From the NCBI GenBank assembly GCA_002189035.1, contig CM007991.1, forward strand, positions 1,736,001 to 1,800,000: DNA of 64,000 nucleotides. The letters run 5' to 3'. Position 1 is the first letter of the stretch; each line of letters opens with the position of its first letter. The notes under the pieces were generated by a model that was not told the DNA's origin, made no database searches, and was given only the letters and a program-made list of their open reading frames with translations. This stretch comes from Utricularia gibba (taxonomy: Eukaryota; Streptophyta; Magnoliopsida; Lamiales; Lentibulariaceae). Both the position numbers and the translations under genes were made by a program. Positions 31,002-34,000 of the stretch are shown here, in pieces.

Positions 31002-34000
31002 ATGAGTAAATCCTCGTTGCCGCTTCAAAACGTTTGTGGAAGATCAGAGAAACAGGTTCTCAAGAAGGAATCTCTGGTGAAGCTTCTGCGATGGCATTTT
31101 GGGCACGCTGATTTCAGGGGAAGCAATTAGACGCCATTCAGGCTGTTTTGTCAGGTTCCTTTCGTTTTATGTGTGTAGTCGCTCTCTTGTTCGTGTATTC
31201 TGTCATGGAACCATAAATGAGCATACTTTGCTGTTATGAAGGAAGGGATTGTTTTTGTCTAATGCCCACGGGTGGGGGAAAATCCATTTGTTATCAGCTC
31301 CCCGCATTAGCAAACCAGGGGATTGTCCTCGTTGTGAGTCCTCTAATAGGTGATTGTAAACAGTTTTCTTTATGCATGCATCGTTTTAAAACGTGCGAGA
31401 AGTTGGTCTAGTTATTTTCTTGAATATCCAGGACATAATTGACTGGTTTCTTCTGCGAATTACTTTTGATTTCAGCCCTAATGGTAAACAACCTTTAATT
31501 TTATGGTCTTAATTTTTCTTGAAGCCAATCGTTTTCTGTTTAGTGATGATAATTTTTTTCTGTCCTGATAGGAGAATCAAGTGATGGGTTTGAAAGAGAA
31601 GGGCATTGCTGCTGAGTATCTCTCATCATCCCAGACCGCCAAACTCAGGAATACGGTATTTGGACCATTTTCCTTTTTAAAACTTTAGATATGGTCTCTT
31701 CTATAATTTCTACATTCCTATCAAGATGTGGGCAGTAGTTGCCCATTCAAATGACTAAAAGAAGCTTCTATGCATTCAAAGTCTGCTCCTGGCTGCTTTC
31801 AGATTTATGAAGACCTAAATTCTGGAAAGCCTTCTATACGGCTCCTCTATGTTACGCCAGAACTACTTGCAACGTCTGCATTTATGCAAAAATTGGCCAA
31901 AGTTCATACCAGAGGATTGCTAAAGCTCATTGCCATAGATGAGGTCTACAATTATGTGGAATTTATAACATAAAATAAGTGATAGGTCCAGTGCTTCAGA
32001 CTTTATTTTTCTTTTAAATCTGCCTTTGAACAATGTCAAATGCATTTATGATAGTTTCTACCTTGTTAGGCACACTGCATATCTACATGGGGACATGATT
32101 TCAGGTTCAGCTCCATGACTTCTCTTTTTTTTTTACCTCCTATTTTATGTATCTCGTCTGTGCAACTTTTTCCTTCTTGGATAAACGAGTCATTGATTTC
32201 CTTAATATACATTTCGAGTTTCGGAAATTTATAGGCATTTCGTAGTGCTTAGAAACCCATGAACTGGTTTACTATGTCCTTAGTTGGATATGAGTGGTTC
32301 CAAAACTTACGTTGATATTTTGTGGTACTGTCAAATAGTGGATATTACAATTTCTGATTTATAATCTGAATTGTTAATGAGGTTGCCTTCCTCATGTTAA
32401 TGCTACTCACACATTTTTTGCACCCTTGCTCAGTTATCTAGTAACCATTTTGAGTTTTTTGTTCCTGTTATTCAAACGCCCCAGGCCAAGTTATAGAAAA
32501 CTTTCTTCCCTGAGGAGTCAATTGCCTGGCGTACCAATCCTGGCTTTGACTGCTACAGCTGTTCCCAAGTGAGTGTTATCCTAGTGAAGCTATAAATTGC
32601 GGTTGTGTAATACACCAATATTCGCAGGGGGTGGGCTGGTGATTTCTGCTAGTAATATCATGCATGTCACAAACATTTCTGCAGGGTCCAAGAGGATGTG
32701 ATAGAATCCTTGTGTCTAAAAAACCCACTTATCTTGAAATCTTCATTCAACAGACCTAATATATACTATGAAGGTGAGTTCACTATACGCTCCAGGTTGA
32801 CGTATGATTATTTCTTAAGATTTTTTTCTTACATGCAGTCCGCTACAAAGATCTGTTGGATGATCCCTATTTTGATCTATGCAATTACCTGAAATCCCAT
32901 GGAAGTGTCTGTGCAATTATTTACTGCCTTGAACGCGCAACTTGTGATGATCTGGCAGCACATCTATCCCAGAATGGCCTTTCTTCTGCAGGTAATGAAA
33001 AAAATTGTTCACTTGAGGTCTTTTGTAACACATGTTAATCTGCCTTCTTGCACTTCAGCATATCATGCTGGACTGAACTGTGGTACGCGAAGCTCTGTCC
33101 TGGATAATTGGATCTCATCAAAAACACAAGTTATTGTGGCAACTGTGGCATTTGGGTAATGCTTTTCCTTCTTTTTATTTCATTCCCTTTATTTTTGTTC
33201 AAGCTCAGTTTTGAACAGTTTGGGAAATTCTTTGGCTTAGCTCCTTTCTTCTTTTCCTGTGGTCTATGCATTGTCGTTGGAGACACCTATTGCGCCATTC
33301 ACAGCTGTTGTGGGGTGGAGTTTTGGTGCAGGATGGTATGCAAATTTTTTACTTTCACTTCAAGCTCCATTCTTAATTTGGCTTCAAAGAAAAGAATTTT
33401 ATGTATATGTTCACGAGGAGGAATTGAACTACCATCCTAGGGCATTGACAGAAAGGATGTCAGAGTTGTTTGTCATTTTAATATCCCCAAATCTATGGAG
33501 GCATTCTACCAAGAGTCAGGGCGAGCAGGTCGTGATCAGTTACCATCTCGAAGTTTGTTGTACTATGGCTTGGATGATCGCAGAAGGATGGTTAGACCAC
33601 ATATCTAAGGTTTCCAGAACTGAAACAGATTCATTTGAAACTTTATGAACAAATTGTAGGAATTTATTTTGAGTAAAGCTTCTAGTAAGAATGTTAAAGT
33701 CTCAAGCACTGATGAGAGTTCCAAGAAGAAGTCCCTTGGTGACTTCTATCAGGTAATTTTGAGATTCCTTAAGGATGTCAGCCTTATGTTTATGTAGTAT
33801 GTTCTAACCTGTGTTTTGATCTAGATGATTGAGTATTGTGAGCAGTTAGGTTGCAGAAGGAAAAAGATTCTTGAATGTTTTGGGACGTGGTAGGTGTCCT
33901 CTTAACCAGGGATTTGCTTTTGTGTCAGTATCAGATTATGCACATTGTAACAAAGAAAAGTGACTTGAAGTGCATGCAGGCACCAGGATCACTGTGTGCA

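Follow-up and report, generated by a model that had tools for sequence, protein, structure and literature searches.

RECQ3 is a plant DNA-repair helicase. At the locus studied here, which lies within a window of 64 kb (the whole stretch of DNA analysed), the two exons that flank RecQ motif V are separated by 285 bases and do not join in frame. How, then, is the motif encoded? The preliminary description proposed that a 4-nt microexon, GATG, lies within this gap. We find that the GATG microexon is real, that it is already known (Yu et al. 2022, Nat Commun; PMC8831610), and that it is one of two microexons held by this gene.

Similarity to RECQ5, together with the shared pair of microexons, identifies the gene as RECQ3, a RecQ helicase of the human RECQ5 type. 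The best Protein Data Bank (PDB) match of the joined protein is human RECQ5 (E 1.8e-105), with weaker matches to BLM (6e-98), bacterial RecQ (5e-91), and RECQ1 (4e-88). It matches the NCBIfam model TIGR00614 (recQ_fam, 450.7 bits) and carries the Pfam domains DEAD, Helicase_C, and RecQ_Zn_bind. The RecQ zinc-binding domain (PF16124) scores above cut-off, at 32.4 bits, in the part before the second of two frame breaks discussed below. Human RECQ5 (PDB 5LB5, 8RL5, and others) is also the closest solved relative, compared as protein alone. Plant RECQ3 groups with human RECQ5, and AtRECQ3 has been biochemically characterized as a 3'-5' helicase, its role in vivo being without demonstration (PMC6947026). 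At the DNA level, the locus is single copy: a search of the 100-Mb assembly (516 contigs) found no second copy. Our 19-exon model of its coding part is given in Table 1.

Table 1. Features of the RECQ3 locus and its neighbor, in window positions.
Feature	Position	Strand	Remarks
RECQ3 coding part, 19 exons	31002-35202	+	Inferred model, from protein alignment and GT-AG sites
RECQ3 exons 1-5	31002-31154, 31242-31349, 31476-31483, 31572-31655, 31803-31943	+	
RECQ3 exons 6-10	32070-32104, 32485-32568, 32685-32773, 32839-32991, 33059-33155	+	
RECQ3 exons 11-15	33332-33335, 33441-33590, 33660-33752, 33825-33889, 33980-34113	+	
RECQ3 exons 16-19	34362-34450, 34542-34672, 34747-34853, 34941-35202	+	
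Apparent one-base loss, G run, exon 1	31117-31120	+	Between HADFRG and KQLDAIQ
8-nt microexon (exon 3)	31476-31483	+	CCCTAATG; phase 1; motif Ia region
Exon upstream of GATG (exon 10)	33059-33155	+	AYHAGLN...VIVATVAFG; last bases TTTGG
Intron upstream of GATG, 176 nt	33156-33331	+	44% T; G-rich patch TGTGGGGTGG near 33309-33318
4-nt microexon GATG (exon 11)	33332-33335	+	Phase 2; completes Gly and gives Met of motif V
Intron downstream of GATG, 105 nt	33336-33440	+	
Exon downstream of GATG (exon 12)	33441-33590	+	First bases GGCATTGAC
Apparent one-base loss, G run, exon 14	33882-33884	+	Directly after ILECFG
Expansin gene	35502-36660	-	Pfam DPBB_1 on both sides of a break; Expansin_C

The 4-nt exon at motif V

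Exon 10 has the 3' end TGGCATTTGG at 33155, followed by the donor gtaatg from 33156, and terminates in GCATTTGG with two codon bases used. Exon 12 begins behind ccatcctag, with an in-frame TAG immediately before it. The direct join of 33155 to 33441 is out of frame, as had been claimed, and runs into a stop about 48 codons later. Two simpler readings were rejected: continuing exon 10 into the gap gives GCA TTT GGG TAA, an immediate stop, and extending exon 12 backwards meets the TAG directly before GGC. Between the two exons, GATG stands in the context gtgcag/GATG/gtatgc, that is, with AG and GT flanks, and all coordinates proposed for its fit between TGCAG and GTATGC in the 285-base gap proved correct. 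Joining GCA TTT GG, GATG, and GGC ATT GAC yields AFGMGID, which is RecQ motif V and aligns gap-free to human RECQ5 SFGMGVDKANVR. The proposal that GATG supplies the Met of motif V is supported.

Could so short an exon be fortuitous, the real join being made via another exon or noncanonical sites in the gap? We listed all AG..GT/GC inner exons of 1 to 39 nt in the 285-base gap and used dinucleotide shuffles of the gap as the test of chance. Of the shuffled gaps, 88% contained a frame-restoring, stop-free AG..GT stretch of 1, 4, 7, 10, or 13 bases; restoring the frame is therefore weak evidence by itself. Against a chance origin, however, none of the frame-restoring inner exons of up to 39 nt in the gap (33156-33440) other than GATG gives AFGMGID without extra residues. 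The Gly-Met form AG-N-ATG-GT appeared in just 1.2% of shuffles, and the exact string AGGATGGT in 0.28%. Across the 64-kb window, AG-N-ATG-GT occurs five times on the plus strand and eight times on the minus strand. The form of the 8-nt exon in the same gene was found in 0.1% of shuffles. Furthermore, the published RECQ3 cluster has equal size and phase. Given the shuffles, the independent 8-nt exon, and the published match, chance is no reasonable explanation of GATG, and a join by any other route is extremely improbable.

A second microexon and the published clusters

The 8-nt exon CCCTAATG, which does not figure in the preliminary account of the gene, is flanked by tttcag and gtaaac. It completes SPLIALMENQ, and without 31476-31483 the frame is lost. 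In this motif Ia region, VSPLIALMENQV here aligns without gaps to VSPLIALIQDQV of human RECQ5. Only with both microexons do exons 2 to 14 give an unbroken helicase reading, of 369 residues.

Both exons have published counterparts. Yu et al. (2022) assign RECQ3 (AT4G35740.1) a microexon of Cluster 5, with size 4 and phase 2, and a further microexon of Cluster 18, with size 8 and phase 1 (PMC8831610). The 4-nt exon was described in 2022 as conserved across land plants (PMC8831610). With phase read as the count of codon bases already used, GATG shares with Cluster 5 its gene, 4-nt size, and phase 2, and on these characters, the only ones compared, we found no difference. On the same reading of phase, CCCTAATG agrees with Cluster 18 in size, phase, gene, and its position distal to Cluster 5, and is the companion exon of GATG. 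The preliminary interpretation of GATG as a microexon is therefore supported by the published 4-nt, phase-2 RECQ3 exon (PMC8831610), but GATG is not the sole microexon of the gene. The 1-nt microexons of APC11 and VPS55 in plants are likewise tiny coding exons missed by annotation, in other genes and of another size (PMC8831610). In that study, every microexon of 10 nt or less that was chosen for reverse transcription polymerase chain reaction (RT-PCR), in four species, was confirmed, and RNA sequencing supported about half of the newly predicted microexons (PMC8831610). For these clusters, the database MEPDB spans 132 plant genomes.

Other RecQ-type genes of the same genome are built differently at this position. 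In all four that were read (L005, L010, L011, and L013), AFGMG is contiguous within an ordinary exon, and none has a 4-nt exon there. L011 (minus strand) has an intron ATGG/gtattt ... tttag/GTATCAAC, one base beyond the position of the downstream intron of RECQ3; it is thus close to, but not identical with, that intron. In L010, a short exon contains AFGMGINKPD. The introns close to motif V in L011 and L010 are perhaps traces of a shared intron history.

Frame breaks in RECQ3 and other genes

The preliminary description held that gene finders missing GATG would call the gene broken. Skipping GATG does break the frame, but including it alone leaves two one-base breaks, in exons 1 and 14, and neither is accounted for by the microexons. 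Several local explanations were considered for them and set aside, and no alternative splice site accounts for either. For the break in exon 14, other donors and acceptors were considered along with an extra microexon: the usable donors are in the wrong phase, and the 90-nt intron 33890-33979 looks, by eye, too short to be two introns around an extra microexon. The break in exon 1 falls within a single conserved exon that leaves no space for an intron.

These two apparent losses in conserved exons might mark RECQ3 as a decaying pseudogene that encodes no functional helicase, with GATG a relic of an ancestral microexon. However, the two breaks aside, the coding sequence has no nonsense codon, and GT and AG are kept at every intron of the model. 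Other genes also break in a like manner, mostly at G or C runs. The neighboring expansin gene is likewise broken by one base, at C runs near 36172-36180. Four HSP70 loci (L018, L019, L022, and L025) that remain 62-95% identical in protein to an intact copy have comparable breaks, mostly in or adjoining a G or C run. Because breaks of this kind fall in strongly conserved genes, we read those of RECQ3 as residual assembly errors, which they probably are; decay of the gene is unlikely. The HSP70 breaks also suggest that the assembly commonly carries indel errors and that its frame-broken genes need caution.

Probable splicing of GATG and its significance

We infer that GATG is spliced into the RECQ3 message of this plant; very probably it is an ancestral coding microexon of the RECQ3 helicase of plants, and constitutively included. 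The spliceosome would remove the introns on either side of GATG, probably sequentially rather than together. Motif V, which belongs to the second helicase lobe, would be completed when AFG, M, and GID are joined. Inclusion would be needed for a full helicase core because skipping is predicted to shift the frame to the stop noted above. Introns that flank plant microexons, above all the upstream ones, tend to be removed late (PMC8831610); by analogy, late removal of the upstream intron is the likely route at GATG. The published intron criteria define T-rich and G-rich introns by 80% thresholds, and neither GATG-flanking intron reaches them (maximum 13/20 T and 7/10 G).

GATG might instead be alternatively spliced, with skipping or intron retention lowering RECQ3 output. 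Skipping gives an early stop, and retention is more frequent for plant introns adjacent to microexons than for other introns (PMC8831610). Yet in plants, skipping is rarer than intron retention, and detained introns are mostly spliced later (PMC8831610). Moreover, our sequence analysis gave no sign of regulation, and we consider such alternative splicing very unlikely. Tuning of RECQ3 output in this small-genome plant, through incomplete inclusion of the 4-nt or the 8-nt exon, is conceivable because the helicase core is cut short when either microexon is missing; we consider it a distinctly long shot.

This exon is a clear case of one that annotation misses and that a catalytic motif needs. 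Because usual annotation misses GATG, uncorrected models would wrongly call RECQ3 truncated. This general point, like the GATG exon itself, has already been published. What we add is the presence of both RECQ3 microexons in this genome, and the caution that frame breaks of this assembly, mostly near G or C runs, can make intact genes look broken.
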